From NCBI GenBank assembly GCA_903844775.1, contig CAIMUZ010000036.1, positions 1 through 34,658 of the forward strand: a DNA stretch of 34,658 nucleotides. Reading direction: 5' to 3'. Position numbers and translations under genes: made by a program. The stretch comes from an uncultured Burkholderiales bacterium. Its GTDB lineage: Bacteria; Pseudomonadota; Gammaproteobacteria; Burkholderiales; Burkholderiaceae_C. The first letter of the stretch is position 1. The number at the start of each line of letters is the position of its first letter. The notes beneath the pieces were generated by a model. The model was given only the letters and a program-made list of their open reading frames with translations, was not told where the DNA came from and ran no database searches. Below are positions 3,087 to 28,851 of the stretch, one piece after another.

Positions 3087-3397
3087 CCCGCCTGAACCTG
3101 ATCTTGGTGATCGCCGTCATTTTTTCAGCCATGTTTTTAGTGCACAGCCATTACCAAGCCCGACGCTCATTCATGGCTTTAGAGGCAGCCAGCAAAGAGG
3201 CGACTCGGCTTGAGTTGGAGCACGAACGTTTGCAAGTTGAGCGTCGCGCCCAAGCTTCGCCACTGCGCATTGAACAAATTGCAAAACAACAATTGCAAAT
3301 GCGTTTGGTCACCCCCGGCATCACCCAATATGTGAAGCAGCCTTCCGATTTACAAAAACCGGCCGAGTCGCAAAAGAGCGTGGGAGCAAAGCCATGA
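3083..3397 (+). CDS. ftsL: Cell division protein FtsL
   Basis: FtsL is a small bitopic membrane protein that forms a periplasmic coiled coil with FtsB and links FtsQ to FtsW-FtsI in the divisome. The 104-residue product has a very short cytoplasmic start, a membrane segment at about residues 4-20 ([17 protein letters not shown]) and a charged helical region rich in E, R and Q (about 25-70) with the family motif [15 protein letters not shown]. It overlaps rsmH and ftsI by ATGA on both sides, which couples translation. The position between rsmH and ftsI is diagnostic for this poorly conserved protein. Confidence 0.93.
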
Positions 3398-8149: not shown

Positions 8150-9317
8150 TTTGGCACAGTGGTTACAAACCTTGTCTCCCGAATGGGGATTTTTGCGCGT
8201 CTTCCAATACATCACCTTTCGCGCGGTGATGGCAGCCATGACTTCTTTGTTGATTGGGTTGATTGCGGGGCCTGCAGTGATTCGCCATTTGACATCACTG
8301 AAAATAGGGCAGCCCATTCGTGGCTACGGCATGGCATCGCATCTTGCTAAAAGCGGGACGCCCACCATGGGCGGTGTTCTGATTTTGTTATCGATCGCCT
8401 TCAGCACCCTCTTGTGGTTTGATTTGTCCAATCGCTTTGTCTGGATTGTGTTGATTGTCACTTTGGGATTTGGCGCCATTGGGTGGGTGGATGACTGGCG
8501 CAAAGTCGTCAACAAAGATCCAGAGGGCATGCGCTCTCGTGAAAAATATTTCTGGCAATCGGTGATTGGATTGCTGGCCGCTTTTTACTTGGTCTTCAGT
8601 ATTTCCGAAAGTTCCAACTTAAGGGTGTTGGATCTTTTCTTCAATTGGGTGATATCAGGGTTTGACGTCAATTTGCCGCCGAAGGCGGGCTTGATGGTGC
8701 CCTTCTTCAAAGAAGTGAGTTATCCCTTGGGCGTTTTTGGATTCATGGTGTTGACCTATTTGGTCATTGTGGGATCTAGCAACGCTGTCAATTTGACCGA
8801 TGGTTTGGATGGCTTGGCCATCATGCCGGTGGTCATGGTGGGCTCAGCTTTGGGTTTGTTTGCTTACCTGACGGGCAGTTCGGTTTACGCCAAGTATCTG
8901 TTCCTTCCCTATATTCCTGGTGCGGGCGAGTTACTGATTTTTTGTTCTGCCATGGCGGGCGCTGGCTTGGCTTTCTTGTGGTTTAACACGCATCCTGCGC
9001 AAGTATTCATGGGCGACGTGGGCGCACTTGCCTTGGGCGCGGCACTGGGCACCATCGCCGTCATTGTTCGTCAAGAAATTGTATTGGCCATCATGGGCGG
9101 CATCTTTGTCGCAGAAGCTTTGTCTGTCATGGCGCAAGTCTCTTATTTCAAATACACCAAGAAAAAATATGGCGAAGGCCGGCGTATTTTGAAGATGGCG
9201 CCTTTGCATCACCACTTTGAAAAGAGCGGTTGGAAAGAAACCCAAGTGGTTGTGCGTTTTTGGATCATCACCATGTTGCTTTGTTTGGTGGGACTGTCGA
9301 CTTTGAAGCTCAGATAA
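8139..9317 (+). CDS. mraY: Phospho-N-acetylmuramoyl-pentapeptide-transferase MraY
   Basis: MraY is the polytopic inner-membrane enzyme that moves phospho-MurNAc-pentapeptide onto undecaprenyl phosphate, giving lipid I. The frame opens at 8082, but ATG 8139, preceded by AGAGAG at 8126-8131, gives the family start LLNLAQWLQ and a 392-residue protein of expected length. Hallmarks are the early GQPIRGYG...KSGTPTMGG loop, the acidic DDWRK, the [10 protein letters not shown] motif, [10 protein letters not shown] and the late HHHFEKSGW motif, with about ten hydrophobic segments. It ends 2 nt before murD. Confidence 0.96.
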
Positions 9318-9319
9318 AG

Positions 9320-10834
9320 ATGAAATACCTTCAAGGCCAACACATTTTAATTTTAGGACTGGGCAGTTCAGGCCTCGCCATGGTGCGTTGGTGCGCGCTC
9401 ATGGGTGCCGATGTCACGGTGGCAGACACGCGTCAGGCGCCCTCTAACTTGGCCATTCTTCAAAGCGAATTGCCGGAGGTGAAGTGGGTGAGTGGTCCGT
9501 TTGTGGCTGAGTTGGTCGAAGGCACAGCCATTCGCGCTGTGTTTGCAAGCCCCGGTTTATCGCCGACCGAAACAGCACCGGTGATGGAAGCTGCCAAATC
9601 GCAGGGCCTGTGGGTGGGTGGCGAGTTGACTTTGTTTGTGCAAGCGCTTGAAAAATTAAAACAAACACGTGACTATGACCCTCAAGTCTTGGCCATCACA
9701 GGGACCAACGGCAAAACCACCGTCACCTCACTCATCGGGCAATTGGTCGAGCGGGCGGGCAAGTCTGTCAAGTTGGCCGGCAACATTGGCCCCACTTTGC
9801 TAGACACGTTGCGTGAGTCGATGGACGCTGAGCTGCCCCAAATTTGGGTCTTAGAGCTTTCTAGTTTTCAGCTGGACAATGCGGGGCCTTTCGAGCCCAG
9901 AGCTGCCACCGTATTGAATGTCACACAAGATCATTTGGATTGGCATGGCACCATGCAAGCCTACGCCGCTGCCAAAGAAAAAATCTTTGGCAACACCTCT
10001 TTGATGGTGCTGAACCGAGATGACGCAAGCGTCATGGCCATGTTGCCTGAGCCAGTTCGCGCCAAACTGCAAAAGCCGGTTGAGCGCGAGCACATCACTT
10101 ATGGCGCGGACATGCCGCAGCGATCCGGTGACTTTGGATTGGAAACCGTCAACGGCATGACTTGGCTGGTGCGCGCCTTAGAGTCAGATGACACTCGGCG
10201 TTTGCGAAAAGGGGAAGTTGAAGAAATTTACATCCAGAGACTGATGCCTGCAGACGCACTGCGCATTCGTGGCCGACACAATGCGGTCAATGCATTGGCT
10301 GCTTTGGCATTGGCCAGCAGTACCGGCTGTAGTTTGGCGGCGATGTTATTTGGCCTTCGTGAATATAAAGGTGAGCCCCACCGTGTTGAGTCTGTGGCCA
10401 TTGTCAACGACATTGAATATTTTGATGACAGCAAAGGCACCAACGTAGGCGCCACGGTGGCTGCGTTGACGGGCCTCGGTGCAGAGCGCAAAGTTGTTGT
10501 GATTTTGGGGGGTGAAGGCAAGGGCCAAGATTTTTCACCGCTGGCAGACCCAGTCTCGCGATTCGCACGTGCCGCAGTTTTGATCGGTCGTTCTGCCTTG
10601 GAAATCCGTGCAGAAATCAAATGGTGTGGTGTGCCTTTGATGGATGCAAGCACACTGCCTGAAGCGGTGGCTGCTGCCAAAGACTTGGCGCAAAAAGGTG
10701 ATGCGGTCTTGTTGTCGCCAGCTTGTGCAAGTTTTGACATGTTCAAAGATTATGAACACCGCGCGAAAGTGTTTTGCCAGGCTGTTGCAGAAATTGCAGA
10801 CACTGCCGGTACAGCCATGGAGGGCGCACTGTGA
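9320..10834 (+). CDS. murD: UDP-N-acetylmuramoylalanine--D-glutamate ligase
   Basis: MurD adds D-glutamate to UDP-MurNAc-L-alanine. The 504-residue product begins with a Rossmann-like GLGSSGLAM segment and has the P-loop GTNGKT at residues 128-133, [20 protein letters not shown] and the C-terminal [13 protein letters not shown] block. The frame is open 30 codons further upstream inside mraY, but ATG 9320 fits the family N-terminus. It is longer than E. coli MurD (438), as is common in this bacterial group. Spacing from mraY is 2 nt. The stop overlaps the ftsW GTG start. Confidence 0.95.
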
Positions 10835-12114
10835 GTGCTTTGTGGTCACGCATCACGGATTGGTCGGCTGCTTTGTTGACCCGCACGGGCGTTGCCTCTT
10901 TGCAAGGTTCTGCTGAGATGGGCCTGCCCGTTAATTTGGGCAGCTACGACTACGCTAAGAATTCAGGCGCACAGGGCAAGATTCAAAACATAGACCAAAC
11001 CTTGGTGTGGGTGGTGGTGGCGCTGCTGATGTGGGGAATGGTCATGGTCTACTCGGCCAGCATTGCCATGCCGGACAACCCCAAATTTGCACGCTATTCG
11101 CAAACCCATTTTTTGTTCCGTCATGTGATCTCGATCCTGATTGGATTTGGCGTGGCCTTGCTCGCCTTCCAAGTGCCCCTTGAGATGTGGGAAAAAAATG
11201 CACGCCCCCTGTTCATCGTGGCACTGGTTTTGTTGGCGGCGGTACTGATTCCATTTATTGGCAAGGGTGTGAATGGTGCCAGGCGTTGGATTTCGTTCGG
11301 TGTGATGAATTTTCAGCCCTCAGAATTTGCCAAGTTGGCGGTCATTATTTATGCCTCTGATTACATGGTGCGCAAGATGGAAGTGAAAGAGCGCTTCTTC
11401 CGCGCTGTGTTGCCCATGGGTGCTGCGGTGGGATTAGCGGGCATCTTCTTGTTGGCTGAACCGGACATGGGCGCGTTTTTGGTCATCGCCATCATTGCCA
11501 TGGGCATCTTGTTCTTGGGTGGCGTCAATGCCCGCATGTTCTTTTTGATTCTGGCTATTTTGGTATTCGCCTTTGCCATGATCATTGCCGCCTCGCCATG
11601 GCGCCGCGAGCGAATTTTTGCCTACCTTGATCCATGGGACCCCACTCACACCTTGGGCAAGGGCTATCAGCTTTCGCATTCCCTCATTGCCATTGGTCGC
11701 GGTGAGATTTTTGGCGTGGGCTTAGGCGGCAGTGTTGAGAAATTGCACTGGTTGCCCGAGGCACACACTGACTTCTTGTTGGCTGTGATTGGTGAAGAAT
11801 TTGGTTTGGTGGGTGTGGTGGCCGTCATTGGCATGTTCCTGTGGCTCAGTCGCCGCATCATGGTGATTGGTCGTCAAGCTTTGGCGCTAGATCGCACCTT
11901 TGCCGGGTTGGTGGCACAGGGTGTGGGCATTTGGATTGGCTTCCAATCCTTCATCAACATGGGTGTGAACCTCGGCGCTTTGCCAACAAAGGGTCTGACC
12001 TTGCCGCTCATGAGTTACGGCGGGTCGGCTATTTTGCTCAACATGGTGGCGATTGCCATTGTGCTGCGCATTGATTCTGAAAACAAACAAATGATGCGGG
12101 GAGGCCGCACATGA
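10831..12114 (+). CDS. ftsW: Septal peptidoglycan glycosyltransferase FtsW
   Basis: FtsW is a SEDS-family polytopic membrane enzyme that polymerises lipid II into glycan strands at the septum together with FtsI. The 427-residue product has about ten hydrophobic segments, [21 protein letters not shown] and the C-terminal [16 protein letters not shown] signature. The chosen start is GTG 10831, overlapping the murD stop (GTGA) and preceded by a strong GGAGGG at 10819-10824. The frame is open to 10774, but starts there lack such a site. A second SEDS protein, RodA, is encoded at 24804. Confidence 0.95.
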
Positions 12115-13172
12115 GTCGTTGCGCTTTGATCATGGCGGGCGGAACAGGCGGGCATATTTTTCCAGGCTTGGCGGTGGCCGAGTCTTTGCGAGAGGCGGGT
12201 TGGCGTGTGCATTGGTTGGGCGTACCTGGCAACATGGAAAGCCAATGGGTTCCGCAGCGAGGCTTTGCATTTGAGCCCGTTGAGTTTGGTGGTGTGCGCG
12301 GCAAAGGCTGGGTCAGTTTGGCTTTGCTGCCTTTGCGATTGCTCAAGGCATTTTGGCAAAGTCTGTTGGTGGTTCGCCGCGTGAAGCCGCATGTGGTCGT
12401 CGGCTTGGGTGGCTACATCACTTTCCCTGGCGGCATGATGTCGGTGTTGTTGGGCAGACCTTTGGTCTTGCATGAGCAAAACTCAGTGGCTGGGCTGGCC
12501 AACAAGGTTTTGGCCGGTGTCGCCGATCGCATTTACAGCGCATTTCCAGATGTTCTCAAAAATGGCATTTGGGTTGGCAATCCGTTGCGCCAAGATTTTT
12601 TGAACAAGCCATCGCCCACGGCGCGTTTTGAGGGCCGAAGTGGTCCCTTGAAATTGTGGGTGGTGGGCGGTAGTTTGGGCGCACAGGCTTTGAATGACAT
12701 TGTGCCGAAAGCATTGGCGTTGTTGCCAGAGGCTGATCGTCCTTGGGTGGTCCACCAAAGTGGCGCCAAACAAATAGAAGCCTTGCAAACTAATTATGCC
12801 CATGCGGGTGTGACAGCCGAATTAACCCCGTTCATTGAAGACACTGCGCAAGCCTTTGCCGATGCTGATCTGATCATTTGTCGCGCGGGCGCAAGCACTG
12901 TGACCGAAATCGCGGCGGTGGGTGCTGCGGCCATTTATGTGCCATTCCCCTTTGCTGTGGACGATCATCAAACCACCAATGCCAATTTCTTGGTGAAGCA
13001 AGGCGCTGGTTGGCTCATGCCGCAGGCTCAATTGACCCCTGAGTTGTTGGCTGAGCGATTGAAGCAGTTGACTCGACCAGAATTGTTGGCTTGTGCAGAA
13101 AAAGCATGGACCTTGAAAAAGACCGATGCCACCCGCGAAGTAGTCGCAGCCTGTGAGGCATTGGCCGTATGA
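12111..13172 (+). CDS. murG: UDP-N-acetylglucosamine--MurNAc-pentapeptide pyrophosphoryl-undecaprenol GlcNAc transferase
   Basis: MurG is the peripheral membrane glycosyltransferase that converts lipid I to lipid II on the cytoplasmic face. The 353-residue product (E. coli 355) starts with the [10 protein letters not shown] loop (residues 10-19), has [12 protein letters not shown], the [11 protein letters not shown] nucleotide-sugar loop, and the C-terminal domain segment [16 protein letters not shown] followed by [14 protein letters not shown]. It overlaps ftsW and murC by ATGA at each end. Confidence 0.97.
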
Positions 13173-14578
13173 AGCACGCTATTCGCCATATCCATTTCAT
13201 CGGCGTCGGTGGCTCCGGCATGAGCGGTATTGCCGAAGTTTTATTGAACTTGGGCTACACCATCTCTGGTTCTGACTTGGCTGACAGCACCACTTTGCGA
13301 CGCTTATCGGGACTGGGCATCCAAACACAAGTCGGCCACAGTGCTGAGAATGTCAAAGGTGCAGACGCGGTGGTGACTTCCACTGCGGTGAAGTCAGACA
13401 ACCCAGAAGTGCTGGCGGCCCGTGCAAGACATATTCCAGTCGTGCCACGCGCCGTCATGTTGGCCGAATTGATGCGCATGAAGCAGGGCGTCGCGATAGC
13501 AGGGACACACGGTAAAACGACCACCACGAGTTTGGTGGCCAGTGTGTTGGCAGAAGGTGGTTTAGACCCCACCTTTGTGATTGGCGGTCGTTTGAACAGT
13601 GCCGGTACCAATGCAAAGTTAGGCACGGGTGACTACATTGTGGTCGAGGCTGATGAGTCTGACGCTTCGTTTTTGAATTTATTGCCTGTCATGGCGGTGA
13701 TCACGAACATTGATGCGGATCACATGGAAACCTATGGCCACGATTTCGAGAAACTGAAATCTGCATTTGTTGACTTCTTACATCGCATGCCGTTTTATGG
13801 CACGGCCATTTTGTGCACTGACGATGCGGGTGTCAGAAGCATCATCGATGCTTTGGCCCGACCCATCACCAGCTATGGCTTGCAAGAAGGTGCACAAATT
13901 AGGGCGGTGGATGTTCAAGCGAAAAATGGCCAAATGCACTTCACCGTGCAACGGCGCAATGGCCTGACCTTGCCTGATCTCCCCATTGTTCTTAATTTAC
14001 CGGGTGAGCACAACGTGTTGAATGCGTTGGCCGCGATTGCGGTGGCTGTTGAATTAGGCGTAGACGACAGTGCCGTGCAGCGCGCATTGGCCGTGTTCAA
14101 AGGCGTGGGTCGCCGGTTCCAGAGGTATGGCGAAGTCAAACTTCAAAACAAAGCGGGCAGTTTCACTTTGGTTGACGATTATGGCCACCATCCTGTTGAG
14201 ATGGCGGCCACCTTGTCAGCGGCGCGTGGTGCATTTCCAGGTCGTCGTTTGGTGCTCGCGTTTCAGCCCCACAGGTACAGCCGAACACGCGATTGCTTTG
14301 AAGATTTTGTGAGTGTCATCAGTCACGGTGCAGACACTGTTTTATTGTCTGAAGTTTATGCAGCGGGCGAAGCACCGATCGTTGCTGCAGATGGTCGAAC
14401 CCTCGTGCGAGCTTTGCGTGTTGCGGGCAAAATTGAACCTGTTTTCGTCGATAAAATTGAGGGCATGGCGCAGGCTATTTTGGACAATGCGAATGACGGC
14501 GACGTCGTCATTTGCATGGGTGCCGGCTCGATTGGTGCTGTGCCCGCTCAAGTTCAAAAAATGGGAGGTTCGGCATGA
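13169..14578 (+). CDS. murC: UDP-N-acetylmuramate--L-alanine ligase
   Basis: MurC adds the first stem-peptide residue, L-alanine, to UDP-MurNAc. The 469-residue product opens with the [12 protein letters not shown] nucleotide-binding turn, has the P-loop GTHGKT at residues 112-117, [23 protein letters not shown] and the C-terminal DDYGHHPVE motif typical of MurC/Mpl. It overlaps murG at its start and ddl at its end (ATGA). A paralogue, Mpl, lies on the minus strand at 28853-30247 and uses a preformed tripeptide instead. Confidence 0.97.
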
Positions 14579-15552
14579 GTGCAGCCGCTTTCCAGTTTGG
14601 CAAAGTTGCAGTCCTGATGGGCGGCCGCTCTGCTGAACGCGAAGTCTCTTTCATGTCAGGTACAGGCGTGTTGGCGGCCTTGCGTGCCAAGGGTGTTGAT
14701 GCCCACCCCTTTGACCCCGCCGAGCGCAATTTAAGTGACTTGAAAGAAGAGGGTTTTGACCGATGCTTCATTGCATTGCATGGCCGATTTGGGGAGGATG
14801 GTACTGTTCAAGGCGCACTCGAATTACTTGGTATTCCCTACACCGGTTCGGGTGTCATGGCTTCTAGCATTGCCATCGATAAAACCATGACCAAGCGTGT
14901 TTGGTTATCGGAAGGCGTGCCCACACCCCGATATGTACTCCTGAAAAATGACAATCTCGGCGCCGATGCACAAGCAAAGGTCTTGCAAGCTTTGGCATTG
15001 CCCTTGATTGTGAAGCCCTCGCGCGAAGGCTCGTCCATCGGTGTCTTTAAAGTTGAGAAAGCCAGTGATTTACCGCATGCCCTTGAAGAGGCGGCCAAGT
15101 GCGATACCGATATTTTGTGTGAGCAATTCATTGCTGGCGATGAAGTGACATGCCCTGTTTTAGGCGAAGGCGATACAGCGCAAGCATTGCCCATCATTCG
15201 AATTGTGGCACCCGAAGGCAACTACGACTACCAGCACAAATACTTTACCGATGAGACTCAATACATCGTGCCTTCTGGCTTGCCCGAGGCAGAAGAAAAA
15301 GTCATTCAAGCGCATGTCCTCAAGGCCTACCGTGTTTTGGGTTGCAAAGGATGGGGTCGTGTCGACGTGATGATTGACGCCAAAACAAGACAAGCTTATT
15401 TGCTAGAAATTAATACGTCCCCTGGCATGACGAGTCACTCTTTGGTTCCCATGTCGGCCAAAGCTGCGGGCATGGATTACGAAGCCTTGTGCTTGCATTT
15501 GTTGGCCAGCGCCGCTTTAGAGCACCCCAGCACTGACAAGGAGGCGGCATGA
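14575..15552 (+). CDS. ddl: D-alanine--D-alanine ligase
   Basis: Ddl joins two D-alanines with ATP, supplying the dipeptide used by MurF. The 325-residue product has the N-terminal [11 protein letters not shown], the [14 protein letters not shown] segment, the ATP-grasp [15 protein letters not shown], and the C-terminal RVDVMID...[17 protein letters not shown]. The frame is open 21 codons upstream inside murC, but ATG 14575 overlaps the murC stop and gives the expected N-terminus. Its position before ftsQ corresponds to ddlB of E. coli. Confidence 0.96.
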
Positions 15553-16337
15553 AAAAACCACTGGTCTTGCCCATGGATGTGCGACTCATGCAATGGACTT
15601 CATTGACCCTGTTTGTGTTGGCTTTCTTGCTTTGCATGGCCAGCGCAATTGGATGGCTTTTTCGACATCCTGCGTTCTCTATTCAGGGCATTACGGTCAA
15701 GGGCAATGTGACACACAGCAATGTGGTGACCTTAAGGGCCAACGTGCTGCCTCAGTTGTCAGGTAACTTTTTCACCTTGAATCTTTTGCAAGCACGTCAA
15801 GCCTTTGAACAGATTCCGTGGATTCGTTCTGCATTTGTCAGGCGCGAGTTCCCCAATCGCTTGTCGGTCACTTTGGATGAGTTCTCCCCCGTTGCGCAAT
15901 GGAGCGTTGAGGGAGATGGTAAGTTTCTAAGCGCTGAGGGTACCGTCTTTGAGGTCAATGCAGATGAAGTCGAAACAGAATCATTGCCGCTTTTGAAGGG
16001 CCCTGAGTCACAGGCCAAAACAGTTTTAGAAATGTATCAATTTTTAAAACCTCTCCTGGCCAAGATGGACATGCGAATCGACAAATTAGAGCTCAGCCAA
16101 AGGGGCAGTTGGTCTGTGCACTTGGAGTCCGGTTCAACCTTGGAATTGGGTCATGGCTCGCAGCAAGAAGTTGGAGAGAGGTTACAGATTTTTTTTAAAA
16201 CCTTAACGCAGGTGTCCTCGCGTTACGGCCGGACAGCGACATCATTGTTGTCAGCAGATTTGCGTTATGAAAATGGTTACGCCTTGCGATTGAGGGGTGT
16301 AAGCACAGTGGTTCCAGAGAGTTTGAAAAAACTCTAA
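15549..16337 (+). CDS. ftsQ: Cell division protein FtsQ
   Basis: FtsQ is a bitopic inner-membrane protein that recruits FtsB-FtsL to the divisome. The 262-residue product has a short cytoplasmic start, one membrane segment at about residues 15-36 ([20 protein letters not shown]), then a POTRA domain beginning at [14 protein letters not shown] and the beta domain with [19 protein letters not shown] and [14 protein letters not shown]. The ATG overlaps the ddl stop. The order ddl-ftsQ-ftsA supports the call. Confidence 0.95.
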
Positions 16338-16375
16338 TCAGTAGATTGAAGATATAGACAAGAACGGTTGAACAT

Positions 16376-17605
16376 ATGGCAAAAGAATACAAAGATTTGG
16401 TGGTCGGTCTCGACATTGGTACATCCAAGGTCATGGTCGTTGTTGCCGAGGTGATGCCAGGTGGCGAGTTGAAGTTGGCTGGCATGGGTGTGGCGCCAGG
16501 CAATGGCTTGAAGCGTGGCGTGGTGGTCAATATTGATGCCACGGTGCAAAGTATTCAACAAGCGCTTAAAGAAGCCGAATTGATGGCAGATTGCAAGATC
16601 ACTCGCGTGAACACGGGTATCACCGGTAGCCATATTCGTGGTTTGAACTCAAGTGGCATGGTGGCAGTGAAAGACAAAGAAGTGACGCCTGCCGACGTTG
16701 CACGCGTGGTTGAAACCGCCAGGGCCATTAATATTTCTACAGACCAGCGCTTGTTGTTGGTAGCCCCCCAAGAATTTGTGATCGATGGCCAAGACGTGAA
16801 AGAGCCGATTGGCATGAGCGGTATGCGCTTGGAAGCCAAGGTGCACATCGTCACAGGTGCACAGAGCGCTGCCGAAAACATCATCAAATGCGTGCGTCGA
16901 TGTGGCTTGGAAGTAGATCAGCTCTTGCTCAATCCTTTGTCTTCTAGCTTGGCGGTGCTGACCGAAGACGAACGCGAATTGGGTGTGGCCTGCGTCGACA
17001 TTGGCGCTGGCACCACCGATGTGGCCATCTTTACCAATGGTGCGATTCGTCACACCGCCGTGATCCCCATTGCGGGCGATTTGATCACCAGCGACATTGC
17101 CATGGCACTGCGAACTCCCACCAAAGATGCAGAAGATATCAAAGTTGAAAGCGGTTGTGCCAAGCAGTTATTGGCAGACCCTGAAGCACAAGTCGAAGTG
17201 CCGGGTCTGGGTGATCGTGCGCCGCGCATGTTGTCCAAGCAAGCTTTGGCCGGTGTGATTGAGCCGCGTGTGGAAGAAATATTTTCACTGGTTCAGCAAG
17301 TCATTCGTGAATCTGGGTATGAAGAAGTTTTATCTTCTGGCATTGTCCTCACAGGCGGTAGTGCTGTCATGCCTGGCATGGTGGAGTTGGGTGAAGATAT
17401 TTTCTTGAAGCCTGTGCGCCGCGGCGTTCCCAAGTACAGCGGTGCCTTGTCTGACATGGTGAGCCAGCCGCGTGTGGCCACTGTCATGGGCTTGATGGAA
17501 GAAGCCCGATTGGCTCGGTTAAGAGGTTTTAAAGTTTCTCAGAAGAAGGGCTCCATGAACAACGCTTTCACTCGTTTGAAAGACTTTATCGTGGGGAATT
17601 TTTAA
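16376..17605 (+). CDS. ftsA: Cell division protein FtsA
   Basis: FtsA is an actin-like ATPase that tethers FtsZ filaments to the inner membrane and helps start constriction. The 409-residue product has the phosphate-1 loop LDIGTSKVMVVV near the N-terminus, VDIGAGTTDVAIF as the phosphate-2 loop, VLTGGSAVMPGM as the adenosine motif, and a C-terminal basic and hydrophobic tail (FTRLKDFIVGNF) fitting the membrane-binding amphipathic helix. It starts 38 nt after ftsQ, the first real gap in the cluster since murC. Its upstream sequence has no strong Shine-Dalgarno. Confidence 0.96.
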   Translation: MAKEYKDLVVGLDIGTSKVMVVVAEVMPGGELKLAGMGVAPGNGLKRGVVVNIDATVQSIQQALKEAELMADCKITRVNTGITGSHIRGLNSSGMVAVKDKEVTPADVARVVETARAINISTDQRLLLVAPQEFVIDGQDVKEPIGMSGMRLEAKVHIVTGAQSAAENIIKCVRRCGLEVDQLLLNPLSSSLAVLTEDERELGVACVDIGAGTTDVAIFTNGAIRHTAVIPIAGDLITSDIAMALRTPTKDAEDIKVESGCAKQLLADPEAQVEVPGLGDRAPRMLSKQALAGVIEPRVEEIFSLVQQVIRESGYEEVLSSGIVLTGGSAVMPGMVELGEDIFLKPVRRGVPKYSGALSDMVSQPRVATVMGLMEEARLARLRGFKVSQKKGSMNNAFTRLKDFIVGNF

Positions 17606-17730
17606 TGGACTGGCGCAAACGTTACTTGGCAAGGGGGAGTCCACATCAGCGATGTTGAAACCCCGTATCCCATAAAAAAAATTTTCAAAAATCAATATTT
17701 AGGCAACTGCAAAAGTTTTAGGAGAGCACC
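17606..17730 (+). promoter_or_regulatory. ftsA-ftsZ intergenic region
   Basis: This 125-nt gap turns AT-rich at 17670-17700 and ends with the ftsZ ribosome binding site AGGAGA (17720-17725). It is the widest gap inside the cluster, consistent with an extra ftsZ promoter. A -35-like TTGAAA lies at 17655-17660, but I cannot assign a convincing -10. Confidence 0.35.
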
Positions 17731-18954
17731 ATGAGCATTGAAATGATCCAAGTCGAAGAGTTCAATCAAGGAACGCAAATCAAAGTGATCGGCGTGGGTG
17801 GCGGCGGCGGTAACGCTGTCGAACACATGATCGAGCGCAACGTTCAAGGCGTTGAATTCATTTGCGCTAACACCGATGCGCAAGCGTTGGCACGCAGCGC
17901 AGCGCACCGCTTTATTCAGTTGGGTCACACCGGTTTAGGCGCAGGCAGTAAACCAGAAAAAGGTCGTGATGCCGCTGAGGAAGCCATCGAAGACATTCGC
18001 GCAGCGATCGAAGGTGCGCACATGTTGTTCATCACGGCAGGTATGGGTGGCGGCACTGGCACCGGTGCTGCGCCGGTCATTGCCCGCGTCGCCAAAGAAA
18101 TGGGCATCCTCACTGTGGGTGTGGTCACCAAGCCGTTCGACTTTGAAGGCGGTCGCCGCATGCAGAGCGCTGAATCTGGTTTGGCCGAGTTAGAAGCCAA
18201 TGTCGATTCCTTGATCGTGGTGCTCAATGAGAAGCTCATGGAATTGCCAGGGGGCGAAGACATGACCCAAGACGAAGCGTTTGCGCACGCCAATGACGTG
18301 CTCAAAAACGCGGTGGGTGGCATTGCCGAGATCATCAATGTGCCAGGTCACGTCAACGTCGACTTTGAAGACGTCCGGACTGTCATGGGCGAACCCGGTA
18401 AAGCCATGATGGGCACCGCCTCAGCCAGCGGTCCTGACCGTGCACGCATTGCGTCTGAGCAAGCGGTCGCTTGCCCATTGCTTGAGGGCATTGATCTGTC
18501 TGGTGCGAAAGGTGTGTTGGTGTTGATCAGTGCGGCCAAAGGTTCCCTCAAATTGAGTGAATCCAAGCAAGCCATGAACACCATCCGCGCTTATGCCTCT
18601 GAAAGCGCGCACGTCATTTACGGTACGGCTTATGACGAAAGCTTGGGTGATGAAATTCGCGTCACTGTCGTGGCCACCGGCTTGTCAAGCCAAGGTGCAC
18701 GCCGCACTGCACCTCCTTTGCAAGTGCTGCGCACGGGGACTGACAACGTAGCTTTCACCGTGGACACAGGCGACGCAGTCTCTTCCAACTTGGGTGGTCA
18801 AACACCAACTTTGGGCGGTGACTATGGCCGTTTGAACACCCCCAGCGTGTGGCGTACCAACCGCACTCAAGCTGCCGCCAAGGTTGATGGCATGGCTTCC
18901 GCAGGGATGGATGACATTGAAATTCCAGCATTTTTGCGCAAGCAAGCTGACTGA
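17731..18954 (+). CDS. ftsZ: Cell division GTPase FtsZ
   Basis: FtsZ is the tubulin-like GTPase that polymerises into the Z-ring. The 407-residue product has IKVIGVGGGGGNAVEHM at the N-terminus, NTDAQAL, the tubulin signature GGGTGTGAAPV, the synergy-loop region GGIAEIINVPGHVNVDFEDV, a variable linker (about residues 325-390) and the conserved C-terminal peptide DDIEIPAFLRKQAD that binds FtsA and other partners. It has a strong ribosome binding site, AGGAGA, at 17720-17725. It is followed by lpxC after 68 nt with no terminator. Confidence 0.98.
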   Translation: MSIEMIQVEEFNQGTQIKVIGVGGGGGNAVEHMIERNVQGVEFICANTDAQALARSAAHRFIQLGHTGLGAGSKPEKGRDAAEEAIEDIRAAIEGAHMLFITAGMGGGTGTGAAPVIARVAKEMGILTVGVVTKPFDFEGGRRMQSAESGLAELEANVDSLIVVLNEKLMELPGGEDMTQDEAFAHANDVLKNAVGGIAEIINVPGHVNVDFEDVRTVMGEPGKAMMGTASASGPDRARIASEQAVACPLLEGIDLSGAKGVLVLISAAKGSLKLSESKQAMNTIRAYASESAHVIYGTAYDESLGDEIRVTVVATGLSSQGARRTAPPLQVLRTGTDNVAFTVDTGDAVSSNLGGQTPTLGGDYGRLNTPSVWRTNRTQAAAKVDGMASAGMDDIEIPAFLRKQAD

Positions 18955-19010
18955 TTTTCAATCGCAGTGGGTCTAACAACCTTCTTGAAGCAAGCTTGGG
19001 TCTGAGAATC

Positions 19011-19016
19011 TAAAAT
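19011..19016 (+). promoter_or_regulatory. Putative -10 element for a leaderless lpxC transcript
   Basis: TAAAAT ends 6 nt before the lpxC ATG (19023), the spacing at which transcription would start on the A of the start codon. There is no Shine-Dalgarno sequence. A -35-like TTGAAG (18985-18990) is 20 nt away, which is too far, so the match rests on the -10 and the repeated pattern in this window. Confidence 0.45.
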
Positions 19017-19022
19017 CAGCTC

Positions 19023-19946
19023 ATGCTTGCTCAAAGAACCATCAAAACCCTGACCCAAGCGGTGGGTGTGGGTTTGCACAGCGGCCAGCGGGTTGAGCTC
19101 ACACTCAAACCTGCGGCGCCTGATACTGGCATTATTTTTCGCCGTGTTGATTTGGTTGAGCCTGTCGATATTCATATCTCTGCACAGAGTGTGACCGACA
19201 CGCGTTTGGCTTCCACCATTTCAAGCGGCCAAGCCAAAGTTCATACCGTTGAGCATTTGATGTCGGCTTGTGCAGGCTTAGGCATCGATAACTTGATCGT
19301 CGATATCACGGCAGAAGAGGTGCCCATCTTGGATGGCTCTGCTTCCTCCTTTGTTTTCTTGCTGCAAAGCGCAGGCATTGAATTGCAGAAGGTCCCCAAG
19401 AAATTCATTCGCGTTTTAAAAACAGTCGAAGTGAAAGACGGGCAGGGCGAAAATATCAAATGGGCCAAGTTGGAGCCTTACAACGGCTACCGTCTGAGTT
19501 TTGAGATTGATTTCCATCACCCTGCGGTCGATTCCACAGGGCAGCAGGTGGTCTTTGACATGGGTCGCGATGTTTATGCACGCGACATCGCTCGAGCACG
19601 TACCTTTGGTTTTACAAAAGATGTCGAAATGTTGAGATCAAACGGCTTGGCACTGGGCGGCGGTTTAGACAACGCCATTGTGATGAACGACTACAAAGTT
19701 CTCAACAGTGACGGCCTGCGTTATGACGATGAATTTGTGAAGCACAAGATCTTGGATGCGATGGGCGATCTGTACCTGATTGGCAAGCCACTGATTGCCA
19801 GTTACACAGCTTTCCGTTCCGGTCATGCCATGAACAATCTGTTGCTGCGTGCCCTGCTCGAGCAGCCGGATGCCTATGAGATCGTCAGCTTTGATGATGT
19901 GAAAAAAGCACCCGAAGGATTTGCTCTTCCCGTTCGTGCTTGGTAA
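19023..19946 (+). CDS. lpxC: UDP-3-O-acyl-N-acetylglucosamine deacetylase
   Basis: LpxC is the zinc-dependent deacetylase of the committed step of lipid A synthesis. The 307-residue product (E. coli 305) has the first zinc-site motif VEHLMSA (E77, H78), the second HKILDAMGD (H241, D245) and the catalytic-site histidine in SGHAMNN (H268). It also has GVGLHSG and the hydrophobic-passage region [14 protein letters not shown]. It ends the dcw cluster, as in many proteobacteria, tying outer-membrane synthesis to murein and division genes. Confidence 0.97.
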
Positions 19947-19949
19947 TTC

Positions 19950-21191
19950 ATGGCGGATCAAGCACCCCCCTCTTTGAAGGCGTTGCTCGCGCATCAACCC
20001 TTTCTGCGTTTTTGGCTTGCCAGGTTGACAGGCATCTTGGCCAATCAAATGCTGATGGTGGCCTTGGCTTGGCACATCTATGAAATCACGGGCAGTGCTT
20101 GGGACTTGGGACTGGTCGGTTTGTTCCAGTTTGTTCCTGCTTTGATCATGACGCTGCCTGCAGGGCATATCGTAGACAGACACCACAAAGTGCACATCTA
20201 CTCAGTTTGCATGTTGCTTCAAGCGGTGGTGGCTGGCCTGTTGGTTTGGGGAACGCACACTGATTCAGTCACCCGGGAGTGGGTATTTTTTGTGTCAGTG
20301 GTGTTGGGAATTGTGCGTGCTTTTCAGATGCCGACCCAACAAGCGCTCACAGCCGATCTGGTGCCTCCTAACTTGCTACAGCGAGCAGTGGCCATGAGCT
20401 CAACCGGTGTTCAGGCTGCGGTGATTGGTGGCCCGGCCATGGGTGGTATTTTGTATGCCTTCCATGTCAATGCGGTTTACGTCACATGTGCCGTTTTCTT
20501 AACGCTTGCATTCCTGCTGGCGCTCACAGTTCGCTACGAGCACAAACCATCTCAAGCTGCGGTTGATTTGCAAAGCGTGATGGCGGGTGCCTACTTTGTT
20601 TGGCATCACAAAGTATTGTTGGGCGCTTTTGCATTGGATCTGTTTGCGGTGCTGTTGGGTGGTGTGACGGCCCTGCTGCCCATTTATGCCAAAGACATTT
20701 TGCACACAGGTCCCGAAGGATTGGGCGTCTTAAGATCTGCGCCCGCGGTCGGGGCATTGATGATGGCGGTTGTCTTGACCCAATGGCCTATTGAGCGCCG
20801 TGTGGGTCGATGGCTTTTGATTTCAGTGGCTATTTTTGGCGCTGCTAATTTTGTGTTTGGCTTGTCAACTCACATGGGCTTGTCGATTGCCGCCCTCATG
20901 CTGGCGGGTGCGGCTGACAATGTGAGTGTGGTGGTGAGGATGACGCTCATGCAACTTGAAACACCCGAAGACATGCGCGGGCGCGTGGCGGCGGTCAATA
21001 CGATCTTCATTGGCGCGTCGAACCAGCTGGGTGAATTTGAATCAGGTGCCACTGCGGCCATGTGGGGGCCTGTGGCTTCAGTGGTCTTTGGCGGCTTGGC
21101 CACGGTGGGTGTGGCACTGGCCACCTTGAAAATATTTCCTGCGCTGGCGCAACGCGATCGAATGATCAGTACCAAGCCCAGCAGCCACTAA
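19950..21191 (+). CDS. MFS transporter (EntS-like family), substrate unknown
   Basis: The 413-residue product is a polytopic membrane protein with about 12 hydrophobic segments. It has the major facilitator loop-2/3-type motif GHIVDRHHKVHIY after the second segment, PTQQALTADLVP, and a second-half repeat GRVAAVNTIFIGASNQLGEFESG that recurs in EntS/MFS_3-type proteins. Some members of that family export siderophores, but nothing here shows the substrate. The ATG lies 3 nt after the lpxC stop without a clear ribosome binding site, so expression probably depends on lpxC read-through and coupling. It converges on ruvC with only 7 nt between. Confidence 0.8.
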   Translation: MADQAPPSLKALLAHQPFLRFWLARLTGILANQMLMVALAWHIYEITGSAWDLGLVGLFQFVPALIMTLPAGHIVDRHHKVHIYSVCMLLQAVVAGLLVWGTHTDSVTREWVFFVSVVLGIVRAFQMPTQQALTADLVPPNLLQRAVAMSSTGVQAAVIGGPAMGGILYAFHVNAVYVTCAVFLTLAFLLALTVRYEHKPSQAAVDLQSVMAGAYFVWHHKVLLGAFALDLFAVLLGGVTALLPIYAKDILHTGPEGLGVLRSAPAVGALMMAVVLTQWPIERRVGRWLLISVAIFGAANFVFGLSTHMGLSIAALMLAGAADNVSVVVRMTLMQLETPEDMRGRVAAVNTIFIGASNQLGEFESGATAAMWGPVASVVFGGLATVGVALATLKIFPALAQRDRMISTKPSSH

Positions 21192-21198
21192 GGCGTCA

Positions 21199-21747
21199 TC
21201 AATGACTGCGGCCGTCTCTGAACATGCCGTGGGTTTTGCGATGAAGAAGATCCAACGCAGCCAGTTTGTTCATGGACGGACTGGCGTGCGCGTGTGTGAT
21301 CGCCAAGCCCAATGCATCAGCCGCGTCAGGGCCAGGCACCGAGGGAAGTTTCAACATGCGTTTCACCATCTCTTGAATTTGAGATTTGGCCGCACGGCCA
21401 TGACCTGTGATGGCCTTCTTCATTTGCAATGCGGTGTATTCAGCCACGGGCAAATTGCATGAAACCAGAGCGGTCAGGCAACATCCACGGGCTTGACCTA
21501 AGAGCAAAGTGGCCTGTGGGTTGACGTTGACGAAAACGATTTCGACCGACGAGACTTGGGGCTGATAACGTTGGTTGATTTCAAGGATGCCGTCGTAAAT
21601 CACCTTCAGACGATTGGGCAAGTTGCCTTGCTCAACTTTGTGGGTGCGAATGACACCGCTGGCGACATAGTTGAGTTTGGCGCCATCAACGTCAATCACA
21701 CCAAAACCAGTGGTTTGAAGGCCAGGGTCTATGCCAAGAATTCTCAT
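21199..21747 (-). CDS. ruvC: Crossover junction endodeoxyribonuclease RuvC
   Basis: RuvC is the dimeric endonuclease that resolves Holliday junctions together with RuvAB. The 182-residue product starts with [17 protein letters not shown], and the acidic catalytic residues are visible as D7, E69 ([16 protein letters not shown]), D141 and D144 ([14 protein letters not shown]). The LLLGQARG segment is also typical. ruvA and ruvB are not in the window. It follows mtgA on the same strand by 21 nt and has its own putative promoter reaching into the end of mtgA. Confidence 0.96.
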
Positions 21748-21753
21748 GCTGCG

Positions 21754-21782
21754 ATTGTCATTCGATGTTCAAGGTAAAGCAA
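21754..21782 (-). promoter_or_regulatory. Putative ruvC promoter (leaderless)
   Basis: On the minus strand TTGCTT (21782-21777), a 17-nt spacer and GACAAT (21759-21754) end exactly 6 nt before the ruvC ATG. There is no Shine-Dalgarno sequence. The -35 lies in the last codons of mtgA. Confidence 0.45.
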
Positions 21783-22515
21783 CATCATTCATGCGCGCCA
21801 TGATGGTTTGAGCGCGATCACTCAAATAAACAGACTCGGGTAATTTTTCAAAAAATCGAGGTCGAGGCAACATCACAGACAGTCGTGCGGATTCCCACTC
21901 CGTCAGTTTGGCGGCGGATTTTTGAAAATAGTGTTGCGCTGCAGCCTCTGCCCCAAAAACCCCCAAGCCCCATTCCACATGGTTTAAGTAAAGCGTGAGA
22001 ATTTGTTTCTTTGACAAAAAGGCTTCGAGGGACAGGGTGATGACCCATTCTTGCGCTTTTCTAACCATGGTTCGCTCACCCGTGAGCAACAGATTTTTTG
22101 CCAGCTGTTGCGTGATTGTGGAGCCACCTACAATTTTGGGCGCCTTTGCCTTGGCATTGTTTTTCTGAGCGGCTTGTGCTTCAAGTTTGGCTTGAGCACT
22201 TGCATTTTTTCGCCACGCTTTTTCAACAGCGTCCCACCATACGCCATTGTGTTGGGTAAAGCCGCTGTCCTCAGAAGCCAACACGGCACGCTTTAAGTTG
22301 TTCGATATTTGATCGGTTCCGCGCCAATCTTGTCGCCAGATCAGATGACCTTTCTTGGACATGATTTGCCAGGCTTGAGACCGCTCAAAGGCTGTAGAGG
22401 CTGGATCAGCAAAGGCCATCACGCCAACGCGACTGATGAAAAAAAATTGCAGCAACACAAAGCCAACAAGCACCAGCTTGAGCCATTGTTGGAATGCAAA
22501 GATGAAACTTTTCAT
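21769..22515 (-). CDS. mtgA: Monofunctional biosynthetic peptidoglycan transglycosylase
   Basis: MtgA polymerises lipid II into glycan strands without a transpeptidase domain (GT51 family). The 248-residue product has one N-terminal membrane segment (about residues 10-33), the catalytic EDSGFTQHNGVWWDAVEKA block, GGSTITQQLAKNLLL and RKAQEWVITLSLEAFLSKKQILTLYLNHVEWGLG. An insertion rich in Ala, Lys and Gln (about residues 103-126) sits between the first two motifs. No good ribosome binding site precedes ATG 22515. aroE often precedes mtgA in related bacteria and is missing here. Confidence 0.94.
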   Translation of the reverse strand: MKSFIFAFQQWLKLVLVGFVLLQFFFISRVGVMAFADPASTAFERSQAWQIMSKKGHLIWRQDWRGTDQISNNLKRAVLASEDSGFTQHNGVWWDAVEKAWRKNASAQAKLEAQAAQKNNAKAKAPKIVGGSTITQQLAKNLLLTGERTMVRKAQEWVITLSLEAFLSKKQILTLYLNHVEWGLGVFGAEAAAQHYFQKSAAKLTEWESARLSVMLPRPRFFEKLPESVYLSDRAQTIMARMNDVALP

Positions 22516-26039: not shown

Positions 26040-27500
26040 ATGATTTCACGCGAACCCACCATTGAACGCCTGGCCACGGCCAGATCTTTGTTGCTCGAAC
26101 CTTTTGGTTTGGACGAAACGCATTTGGCCAAAGCTTTGAGCGCCATCAAGGCGCACAAAGTGGACGATGCCGATTTGTATTTCCAATACACCCGCTCAGA
26201 GGGCTGGAGTCTGGAAGAGGGCATTGTGAAAACGGGCAGTTTCAGCATTGACCAAGGCGTAGGGGTGCGCGCTGTGGCCGGCGAAAAAACGGCTTTTGCT
26301 TATTCAGACGACATTTCTGAAGCGTCCCTGATGGATGCGGCCGTCACCGTCAGAGCCATTGCACAAGCCAGTCAAAATCGCAAAGCCAAAGTACCTGCGC
26401 GCAAGGTCGCTGGCATTCGGTCTTTGTATCCCTCGCTGGACCCCATGGGCACTTTGAACAGCACCGATAAAGTGAAGTTGCTGGAAAAGGTCGAGCAATT
26501 GGCCCGTGCCAAAGATGCGCGCGTGGTGCAAGTCATGGCTGGCTTGGCCAGTGAGTATGACGTGGTCATGGTGGCGCGAGCTGATGGCACTTTGGCAGCC
26601 GATGTGCGTCCCTTGGTGCGTCTTTCTGTCACCGTCATCGCTGAAAAAAATGGTCGCCGTGAGGTCGGCAGCGGTGGTGGTGGTGGTCGATTTGGTTTGG
26701 CCTATTTTGACGATGCCATGATCAACACTTATGTAAATGACGCAGTGCATGCGGCTTTGACCAATTTGGACGCGCGCCCAGCCCCTGCGGGTGTCATGAC
26801 AGTGGTGCTCGGGCCTGGCTGGCCGGGCGTGCTGTTGCATGAAGCCATTGGCCATGGTTTGGAAGGTGATTTCAATCGCAAAGGCTCTAGCGCCTTCAGC
26901 GGCATGATTGGCAAGCGCGTGGCCGCAAAGGGCGTGACGGTGTTGGACGATGGCACTATTTCTGATCGACGTGGTTCTTTGAATGTGGACGATGAAGGTT
27001 GCCCCAGTCAGCGCAATGTGCTCATCGAAGACGGCATTTTGAAAGGCTACATCCAAGACGCCATGAACGCACGACTGATGGGCGTGAAGCCCACAGGCAA
27101 TGGTCGCCGCGAAAGCTATGCGCACATTCCGATGCCGCGCATGACCAACACGTACATGTTGGGTGGCGACAAATCGCCCGAAGAAATTGTCGCCAGCATC
27201 AAGAAAGGTTTGTACGCCACCAACTTCGGCGGTGGCCAAGTGGACATCACCAGTGGCAAGTTTGTTTTCTCAGCCAGCGAAGCTTACTGGGTAGAAAACG
27301 GCAAGATTCAATACCCTGTGAAAGGGGCAACTTTGGTCGGCAGTGGGCCAGAATGTCTGAAGCAAGTCAGCATGATTGGCAATGACATGCGCCTTGATTC
27401 TGGCGTGGGAGTTTGCGGCAAAGAAGGTCAAAGCGTGCCTGTGGGTGTGGGCCAACCCACCCTGCGCATTGAGGGTCTCACCGTGGGCGGCACCGCTTAA
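26040..27500 (+). CDS. tldD: Metalloprotease TldD
   Basis: TldD forms a heterodimeric zinc protease with TldE/PmbA that cleaves unfolded peptides, for example in microcin B17 maturation and CcdA degradation. The 486-residue product (E. coli 481) has the HExxxH motif HEAIGH at residues 267-272, followed by GLEGDFNRKGSSAFSG. The C-terminal domain has MPRMTNTYMLGG, the cysteine-containing GSGPECLKQVSMIGNDM, and GVCGKEGQSVPVGVGQPTLRI. The partner gene is not in the window. Confidence 0.95.
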   Translation: MISREPTIERLATARSLLLEPFGLDETHLAKALSAIKAHKVDDADLYFQYTRSEGWSLEEGIVKTGSFSIDQGVGVRAVAGEKTAFAYSDDISEASLMDAAVTVRAIAQASQNRKAKVPARKVAGIRSLYPSLDPMGTLNSTDKVKLLEKVEQLARAKDARVVQVMAGLASEYDVVMVARADGTLAADVRPLVRLSVTVIAEKNGRREVGSGGGGGRFGLAYFDDAMINTYVNDAVHAALTNLDARPAPAGVMTVVLGPGWPGVLLHEAIGHGLEGDFNRKGSSAFSGMIGKRVAAKGVTVLDDGTISDRRGSLNVDDEGCPSQRNVLIEDGILKGYIQDAMNARLMGVKPTGNGRRESYAHIPMPRMTNTYMLGGDKSPEEIVASIKKGLYATNFGGGQVDITSGKFVFSASEAYWVENGKIQYPVKGATLVGSGPECLKQVSMIGNDMRLDSGVGVCGKEGQSVPVGVGQPTLRIEGLTVGGTA

Positions 27501-27545: not shown

Positions 27546-27554
27546 TGCTACATT
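27546..27554 (+). promoter_or_regulatory. Putative extended -10 promoter of the aroG leader
   Basis: TGC-TACATT has the TGn extension and a -10 hexamer with four of six consensus bases. Transcription would start about at 27561, directly at or before the leader-peptide ATG (27563). No clear -35 is seen, as is common for extended -10 promoters. Confidence 0.4.
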
Positions 27555-27562
27555 CATTTCCA

Positions 27563-27637
27563 ATGACCCAGCGCTTCAGCTCTTTTAGTTTTTATTTTGC
27601 ATTCTCAGTCTCAGGCGGACGAGAGGCCAGCGCATAA
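27563..27637 (+). CDS. Phenylalanine-rich leader peptide of aroG
   Basis: A 24-codon ORF in the aroG leader encodes a peptide whose core reads FSSFSFYFAFS: five Phe codons (27575, 27584, 27590, 27596, 27602) and one Tyr codon (27593) within ten codons. It stops with TAA at 27635-27637, 21 nt before the attenuator stem. The design matches pheL/pheM-type leaders of E. coli. The ATG has no Shine-Dalgarno, but the putative start of transcription lies just before it, so it may be read as a leaderless message. Ribosomes short of Phe-tRNA would stall over 27584-27604 and leave the antiterminator strand at 27614 free. Its function is inferred; the codons and structures are seen directly. Confidence 0.75.
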   Translation: MTQRFSSFSFYFAFSVSGGREASA

Positions 27638-27690
27638 GTCACTGAACCCCTCTACCAACCGCCGGACTCAACCCCCGGCGGTTTTTTTTT
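27614..27690 (+). terminator. Transcription attenuator (terminator and antiterminator) of aroG
   Basis: The terminator is AACCGCCGG (27657-27665), a 9-nt loop, and CCGGCGGTT (27675-27683), a perfect 9-bp stem running into nine Ts (27682-27690). The competing antiterminator pairs GGCGG (27614-27618) with CCGCC (27659-27663), and AGAGG (27622-27626) with CCTCT (27649-27653). Both left-hand strands lie within the leader-peptide ORF downstream of the Phe codons. TCTC (27609-27612) with GAGA (27621-27624) could in turn block the antiterminator. The stem stands 36 nt before the aroG ATG, so it controls aroG rather than ending tldD alone. Confidence 0.8.
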
Positions 27691-27726
27691 GATACCCATT
27701 TTTTATTTTTCAGACAGGAGCACACG

Positions 27727-28851
27727 ATGAACACCAAAGCCAAAGCCAGTTCGGAGCCTCGTTATGTCAACCCTTTGGACCGCATGGGGCAGACCGACGA
27801 CGAACGCATCAAGGACATCACCGTGCTGCCGCCTCCCGAACATTTAATGCGCTTTTTCCCCATCACGGGAACGGCTGTGGAAACTTTGATTTCGCAGACC
27901 CGCCGCAAAATTCACAACATCATCGCGGGCAAGGACGATCGCTTGTTGGTGGTCATTGGCCCCTGCTCCATTCACGACCCTGCGGCAGCCCTGGATTACG
28001 CAAGACGCTTAAAGCCCTTGCGCGACAAGTACCAAGGCAGCTTGGAAATTGTGATGCGTGTCTACTTCGAAAAACCACGGACCACGGTGGGTTGGAAAGG
28101 CTTGATCAACGATCCTTACCTGGACGAAAGCTACAGAATTGATGAAGGCTTGCGCATTGCTCGCCAATTGCTGATTGAAATTAACCGCCAAGGACTACCG
28201 GCTGGCAGCGAATTTTTGGATGTGATTTCACCCCAATATATTGGCGACTTGATCAGTTGGGGGGCCATCGGTGCACGAACCACTGAAAGCCAAGTTCACC
28301 GTGAACTGGCGTCGGGCCTTTCAGCGCCCATTGGTTTCAAAAATGGCACCGATGGCAACATCAAAATTGCCACGGATGCAATACAAGCTGCAGCCCGCGG
28401 CCACCACTTTTTGTCTGTGCACAAGAACGGCCAAGTGGCCGTTGTGCAAACCCAAGGTAACCCCGATTGCCACGTTATTTTGCGGGGTGGCAAAGCGCCC
28501 AATTACGACGAAGCCAGCGTGAACGCAGCTTGCAAAGATCTAGAAGCCGCCAAATTGCCACCGACATTGATGGTCGATTGCAGCCATGCCAACAGCAGCA
28601 AGCAGCATGAACGTCAGGTGAATGTGACGCAAGACATTGCGGCGCAAGTCAGCAAAGGCTCACGTCAAATATTTGGTGTGATGGTGGAAAGCCACATTGA
28701 GTCTGGCGCTCAAAAATTCACACCCGGCAAAGACGATGTGACCCGGTTGAAATATGCGCAGAGCATCACTGATGCTTGCATTGGTTGGGCTGACAGCGAG
28801 AAAGTATTGGAGATTTTGGCCAAAGCGGTTGAAGCAAGGCGCAAAAAATAA
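27727..28851 (+). CDS. aroG: 3-deoxy-7-phosphoheptulonate synthase (class I DAHP synthase)
   Basis: DAHP synthase condenses phosphoenolpyruvate and erythrose 4-phosphate in the first step of the shikimate pathway towards Phe, Tyr and Trp. The 374-residue product is of the AroF/G/H type. It has LVVIGPCSIHDPAAALDYARRL, RVYFEKPRTTVGWKGLINDP, GARTTESQVHRELASGLS, the FKNGTDGN loop and MVDCSHANSSK. A strong AGGAG (27716-27720) precedes the ATG by 6 nt. The leader carries a Phe-rich peptide and an attenuator, so expression probably rises when charged Phe-tRNA is short. The isozyme's feedback inhibitor (Phe or Tyr) cannot be told safely from sequence alone. It converges on mpl with one base between the stop codons. 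Confidence 0.95.
   Translation: MNTKAKASSEPRYVNPLDRMGQTDDERIKDITVLPPPEHLMRFFPITGTAVETLISQTRRKIHNIIAGKDDRLLVVIGPCSIHDPAAALDYARRLKPLRDKYQGSLEIVMRVYFEKPRTTVGWKGLINDPYLDESYRIDEGLRIARQLLIEINRQGLPAGSEFLDVISPQYIGDLISWGAIGARTTESQVHRELASGLSAPIGFKNGTDGNIKIATDAIQAAARGHHFLSVHKNGQVAVVQTQGNPDCHVILRGGKAPNYDEASVNAACKDLEAAKLPPTLMVDCSHANSSKQHERQVNVTQDIAAQVSKGSRQIFGVMVESHIESGAQKFTPGKDDVTRLKYAQSITDACIGWADSEKVLEILAKAVEARRKK

Follow-up and report, generated by a model that had tools for sequence, protein, structure and literature searches.

The aroG gene of the window (the whole stretch of DNA analysed, 34,658 nucleotides in length) was preceded by a conserved leader that very probably operates as a ribosome-dependent transcription attenuator, a classical kind of control, coupling aroG expression to the charging of aromatic tRNAs. 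The leader contained a short reading frame rich in Phe and Tyr codons, an intrinsic terminator and a predicted antiterminator (Table 1). The initial annotation had proposed such a mechanism, and as a prediction from sequence this is well supported by the parts themselves, by selection on the reading frame and by the conservation of mutually exclusive predicted pairings. Its coordinates for the open reading frame (ORF), the Phe and Tyr codons, the terminator and the antiterminator all proved correct to the base when checked again. The assembly containing the window was 2.5 Mb long and 78% complete, and belonged to a genus that includes Limnohabitans sp. MMS-10A-178.

Table 1. Coordinates of the leader and its neighbouring genes in the window
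Feature	Position	Strand	Evidence
tldD, metalloprotease TldD; upstream neighbour, same strand as aroG	26040..27500	+	NCBIfam NF008006, 679 bits; Pfam PmbA_TldD domains
Extended -10 promoter-like element, TG-C-TACATT; last base 8 nt before leader ATG	27546..27554	+	Motif in relatives
Leader peptide ORF, 24 codons, MTQRFSSFSFYFAFSVSGGREASA; ATG at 27563, TAA at 27635-27637	27563..27637	+	Sequence; frame selection in relatives
Regulatory codons: Phe 5, 8, 10, 12, 14 and Tyr 11	27575..27604	+	Sequence; aromatic run kept in relatives
Predicted protector (1:2) hairpin, 27602-27606 and 27608-27611 with 27617-27625	27602..27625	+	Folding
Antiterminator 5' strand, GGCGG...AGAGG	27614..27626	+	Sequence; GG[CT]GG in relatives
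Antiterminator 3' strand, CCTCT...CCGCC; overlaps terminator 5' arm	27649..27663	+	Sequence; predicted pairing in relatives
Intrinsic terminator: 9-bp stem 27657-27665/27675-27683 and T run 27682-27690	27657..27690	+	Sequence; conservation
Shine-Dalgarno AGGAG of aroG	27716..27720	+	Sequence; SD-like 4-mers at aroG starts of relatives
aroG, class I DAHP synthase, 374 aa; putative regulated gene	27727..28851	+	Pfam DAHP_synth_1, 1e-96; NCBIfam aroFGH TIGR00034, 547 bits

The end of the leader ORF and the start of aroG were separated by 89 nt. Within this interval the terminator arms, AACCGCCGG (27657-27665) and CCGGCGGTT (27675-27683), were paired at nine of nine positions around a loop of 9, and two of the nine Ts in the T run also belonged to the stem. 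The antiterminator would consist of GGCGG (27614-27618) paired with CCGCC (27659-27663), and AGAGG (27622-27626) paired with CCTCT (27649-27653). A third helix, absent from the initial annotation, was predicted between 27602-27611 and 27617-27625; it starts within the last Phe codon and would keep the antiterminator strand hidden. A simple consensus scan of the window for promoters and terminators found no sigma-70 site (i.e., a -35/-10 pair), and also missed the leader terminator because the loop limit of the scan was 8.

Stretches with six Phe or Tyr codons were found twice among the 50,682 overlapping, stop-free 10-codon stretches in the six frames of the window, and no stretch contained more. 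Across 160 distinct leaders, the third base of TTN and TAN codons preceding GG[CT]GG was T or C in 1040 cases and A or G in 25, and all 25 of the purine-ending codons were TTG. This test was used in place of codon-position diversity, which was only mildly informative because changes from Phe to Tyr occur at the second position. The bias represents the synonymous change at conserved aromatic codons that the initial annotation had suggested looking for, and by this comparison the Phe/Tyr reading frame of the leader is under selection.

The label of 'Phe attenuator' given initially was correct in so far as Phe codons were present in all leaders, but it was too narrow; Tyr codons were likewise present in 161 of 161 distinct leaders, while 119 of the 161 also contained Trp, which was situated within the first 18 residues in 117 cases. 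Typical aromatic cores in relatives were FYFFYFWF, FYFAYFWF and KFYFYFFWYL. The commoner form of the leader thus contains codons for each of the three end products of the pathway entered through aroG, and 'aromatic attenuator' is a better name for the predicted element, of the Phe/Tyr kind in the window's lineage. Within the genus, Trp was present in 47 of 76 leaders and absent from the other 29, which included the window's clade. All members of this clade (L001-L019 and L021, with AroG at least 91% identical) were without a leader Trp codon, L014 being masked at its start, and each had a single DAHP synthase match; many other genomes in the genus had a second, approximately 55% identical. The joint absence of the Trp codon and the second enzyme from this clade may reflect one event.

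Beyond the aromatic run a different element was conserved. The GG[CT]GG strand was present in 133 of 133 leaders, compared with 13% of shuffled segments (from 87 distinct segments), and it occurred in frame 0 in 103 leaders and in frame 2 in the other 30. In some genera a stop codon fell within this conserved stretch, and the peptides ended in PGG or LGG. The two frames and the early stops imply that, past the aromatic run, it is the RNA strand that is conserved while the peptide is free to change.

The case for an attenuator rests on conservation. The fold energy of the region in the window was only mildly unusual (z = -2.04), and its antiterminator alone was not more stable than shuffled sequences (p = 0.155), while 36 of 87 leaders achieved p ≤ 0.05. 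A terminator was situated between the leader ORF and the structural gene in 133 of 134 leader-bearing loci, the exception being L094. In the alignment, 94.5% of antiterminator cells were paired, with changes on both sides at two of seven pairs; the corresponding values for the terminator were 96.2% and three of nine pairs. The initial annotation had looked for compensatory changes in both stems, and this expectation was borne out in part. The paired share, the number of changed cells and the covariation score exceeded all 500 of 500 shuffles, as well as slid controls, for both stems, but the number of antiterminator pairs with two-sided changes was not above chance (295 of 500 shuffles were as high), owing to a core without variation. 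Further terminator pair types were not clearly above chance either (77 of 500 shuffles were as high). Four of the seven antiterminator pairs and five of the nine terminator pairs formed an invariant core which, since it never varies except for one T, is silent as structural evidence. One set of three columns (60, 130 and 145) covaried across all three strands, being C-G-C in 30 leaders, T-A-T in 8 and A-T-A in 1 of the 52 aligned, while the remaining 13 showed a misfit or wobble only. In the window's clade there was an A-G mismatch past the 5-bp GGCGG helix.

The predicted pairings were mutually exclusive; the antiterminator was positioned beyond the regulatory codons and has one strand in common with the terminator. 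With the terminator made only as far as its 5' arm, an antiterminator with GG[CT]GG was predicted in 97 of 97 distinct leaders. The combination of 1:2 hairpin and terminator was more favourable than the antiterminator in 96 of the 97, and the full fold included the terminator in 92. Median energies were -17.8 kcal/mol for the antiterminator and -18.3 kcal/mol for the terminator; the antiterminator at least equalled the terminator alone in just 49 of the 97 leaders. The protector hairpin over the regulatory codons was predicted in 156 of 160 leaders, with a mean energy modestly below that of shuffled sequences (-9.4 vs -8.0 kcal/mol); 138 of the 160 were below their own shuffle mean.

A motif of the form TGnTAnnn[TG] was present in 132 of 161 distinct leaders, ending 6–9 nt upstream of the ATG (6 nt in 29, 7 in 61, 8 in 41 and 9 in 1); the 44 nt further upstream contained it in 3 of 161. 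None of the 132 leaders with the box had a Shine-Dalgarno-like 4-mer between -16 and -4 of the leader ATG, whereas among the 48 loci with an AroG match beginning at residue 1 on a start codon, 44 had such a 4-mer in the same position relative to the AroG start; it was within 40 nt of the aroG start in 123 of 134 loci. The spacing of the box and the lack of this 4-mer suggest a transcription start on the leader ATG, or no more than about 2 nt away, and a leader mRNA that is probably leaderless. Loci resembling those of Burkholderia and Oxalobacteraceae differed, having a TATAAA or TATAGT box some 30–40 nt upstream. A search of the window's genome for a second promoter-plus-ATG site with up to three mismatches returned 64+82 matches, against 47+46 for the reversed control, with no clear second member; among the matches listed, the arrangement was exact only at the aroG leader.

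In the proposed mechanism, RNA polymerase would initiate on the leader ATG or no more than about 2 nt from it, and the emerging 5' end would be loaded with a ribosome without the help of a Shine-Dalgarno sequence. Where charged Phe-tRNA or Tyr-tRNA is scarce (or Trp-tRNA also, in many relatives), the ribosome would stall in the aromatic run, where it would mask or melt the 5' side of the 1:2 hairpin. This would free GGCGG(N3)AGAGG to pair with CCTCT(N5)CCGCC, occupying the terminator arm and allowing transcription to continue into aroG. With ample charging, the ribosome would reach the stop codon and cover roughly 27617–27648, assuming a footprint of the usual size, or would depart and allow the 1:2 hairpin to reform; in either case the terminator would form and the RNA would end near 27690.

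The distribution of the leader was surveyed with a covariance model built from 52 leaders, in which the terminator was the only structure modelled; more distant leaders may escape this model. The match in the window extended over 27563-27691 and scored 96.7 bits. Within the genus, 82 of 90 genomes had one full-length copy at 79–115 bits. The next best among the matches listed scored 33.9 bits, and most of the lower matches among those listed (below 34 bits) spanned the terminator alone. Of the eight genomes lacking a leader match, four (G029, G031, G061 and G062) had only the paralog or fragments, three (G043, G044 and G053) lacked any AroG match, and the contig of G059 stopped about 60 nt upstream of aroG. 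G043 and G044 were 95% and 92% complete, and had no match to the window's DAHP synthase even so. A leader was situated upstream of all 78 aroG orthologs in the genus that had enough upstream sequence; from 81 AroG orthologs, leader and terminator were identified by script in 76 and by eye in two (L145 and the part of L014 that is not masked), while three were too short upstream. No leader was found at any of nine sampled DAHP synthase paralogs with about 55% identity. L006 and L031 were one and the same contig stretch.

Sampling across the family (250 genomes from 126 genera) gave one match in each of 245 genomes, representing 124 genera (E ≤ 1e-7). Three of the five genomes without a match had no AroG match in the assembly and one had a C-terminal fragment; the fifth (G270) had an intact aroG from which the leader was wholly gone. 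At this locus (L208; G270:C2, upstream of 283784) the tldD stop codon was followed by 47 nt and then the aroG ATG, and by this arrangement it is a natural deletion of the putative attenuator. Across the order, a match was obtained in 112 of the 399 genomes sampled, and in 62 of the 164 genera (E ≤ 1e-5), although a few of the weakest were not before aroG; in the class sample there were matches in 8 of 370, including four before aroG from outside the order and one partial match that was not before aroG. The initial annotation had framed its inference in terms of the window's lineage; by these counts the leader is not peculiar to that lineage, being near-universal among the sampled members of the family and of scattered occurrence in the order. 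No aromatic leader preceded aroG in three of three Polynucleobacter loci examined (L056, L058 and L060); together with the loss in G270, this indicates that the leader is dispensable. In L056 and L058, aroG lay close behind tldD.

AroG was encoded directly downstream of the leader in 36 of 37 loci in one set, and in 45 of 49 in another (L203-L206 being common to both). The four others (L247-L250) were without aroG and had weak matches of 34.6–38.2 bits; L249 and L250 were partial matches to the model, while in L247 and L248 a leader preceded another gene. These two loci (G929:C1:1711110-1711260 and G874:C50:51624-51774) contained a related aromatic leader, MITFSAVFNAYFYWYRSSRRLQGASLD, a hairpin and a T-rich stretch. 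The ORF downstream had no Pfam or NCBIfam match, and both loci came from one genus in another family of the same order.

It is improbable, though the best placed of the alternatives, that the leader works chiefly in trans, through a stable small RNA or a leader peptide set free by termination, with attenuation of aroG being secondary. In its favour are the strong conservation of a single copy and a precedent in the leaderless trpL of Sinorhizobium meliloti, whose RNA and peptide are both reported to act in trans (PMC7298713). However, past the aromatic run the conserved strand occurs in two frames, and in some genera an early stop intervenes, so that the C-terminal half is not conserved as a peptide; the synteny with aroG is also tight. 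Attenuation of aroG in cis is the preferred reading.

We consider it very improbable that the hairpin does no more than end transcription of tldD or of a small RNA, and that the Phe-rich ORF arose only because the stretch is rich in T. The tldD gene does end at 27500 on the same strand, and these genomes contain many terminators of the CCGCCGG/CCGGCGG type. Yet T-richness would not yield 1040 pyrimidines to 25 purines at third bases, and the promoter-like box 6–9 nt before the ATG (132/161) and the GG[CT]GG strand (133/133) would go unexplained, as would the presence of the leader before the ortholog and its absence from the paralog (9/9 sampled).

Neither the window nor five relatives (L022, L081, L069, L088 and L203) matched any Rfam 15 family at gathering thresholds, and at a relaxed threshold the leader region gave four sub-threshold matches, all to unrelated families. 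The least credible alternative, that a protein or metabolite takes the place of the ribosome in reading the RNA (through a riboswitch or TyrR-like control), could account for the near-invariant GGCGG/CCGCC/GGCGG core by a bound factor, but near-invariance is also expected where one strand pairs with two partners, no riboswitch or T-box was matched in the window or these relatives, and selection on an aromatic frame has no place in such a model.

Among known systems, the pheL-pheA and pheM-pheST attenuators of enterobacteria combine a Phe-rich leader peptide with 1:2, 2:3 and 3:4 hairpins and an intrinsic terminator. The aroG leader is like these in its Phe-rich peptide, predicted alternative hairpins and terminator, but it differs in preceding the entry step of the pathway, in having Tyr and often Trp codons, and in having no Rfam 15 match at threshold. 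The ilvGMEDA and thr leaders are attenuators that respond to several amino acids; like the aroG leader as predicted here, they sense several end products of a shared pathway with one leader, although their codons are branched-chain or Thr/Ile rather than aromatic. The trpL leader of S. meliloti (rnTrpL) is reported to be leaderless, its RNA having a 5' end at the leader ATG (PMC7298713). It resembles the aroG leader in that 5' end (predicted for aroG), in its codon run and in the attenuation of a biosynthetic gene; it differs in having Trp codons only, in being upstream of trpE(G) in an alphaproteobacterium, and in that the leaderless start is a prediction for aroG.

In gammaproteobacteria, DAHP synthase genes are controlled by TyrR and TrpR, whose regulons are described for lineages of that class (PMC5343134); the available part of that source describes neither regulon for the window's bacterial group, which leaves room for another control of the DAHP synthase step here. 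Gene function and end-product signals would be shared with the aroG leader, but TyrR and TrpR are DNA-binding regulators that act at the promoter, whereas the aroG leader would act by termination within the leader. There may be an even chance that the charging of each of the three aromatic tRNAs is sensed by one leaderless leader mRNA, which would control entry to the shikimate pathway in the window's family and in many other families of the order, in the role that TyrR and TrpR have in enterobacteria, and that lineages like the window's have since lost the Trp codon and narrowed to Phe and Tyr.

Among the titles and openings of abstracts listed by searches of an open literature library, none reports an aroG attenuator in these bacteria; an earlier prediction may exist, for example in the tables that supplement a survey of attenuators from 2010 (PMC2965389) or in Vitreschak et al. 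(2004). The aroG leader looks like a conserved, uncatalogued attenuator with unusual features. It offers a concrete, if predicted, control of the first committed step of aromatic synthesis in a group for which the available part of PMC5343134 describes no TyrR or TrpR regulon. Being near-universal in the family sample and without a match in Rfam 15, it is a candidate for a named RNA family. The existence of leaders with and without a Trp codon, and of one species with a deleted leader, provides a system for studying the evolution of attenuators that respond to several amino acids, and the probable leaderless start provides another for ribosome loading on an attenuator without a 5' UTR. The leader is also relevant to the metabolic engineering of aromatic compounds in these bacteria.

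Two further loci were labelled as Devosia and Anaerolineae MAGs, although these labels may be doubtful. L101 had aroG, a Tyr/Trp-rich leader and a terminator-like hairpin, and L094 had an aromatic leader-like ORF and a long hairpin without a T run. A plasmid match was sought and none was found. Elsewhere in the window, 3394-22515 contained a long run of ORFs on the same strand, many overlapping end to end, followed by two on the opposite strand; from its layout, this is perhaps a division and cell-wall cluster.
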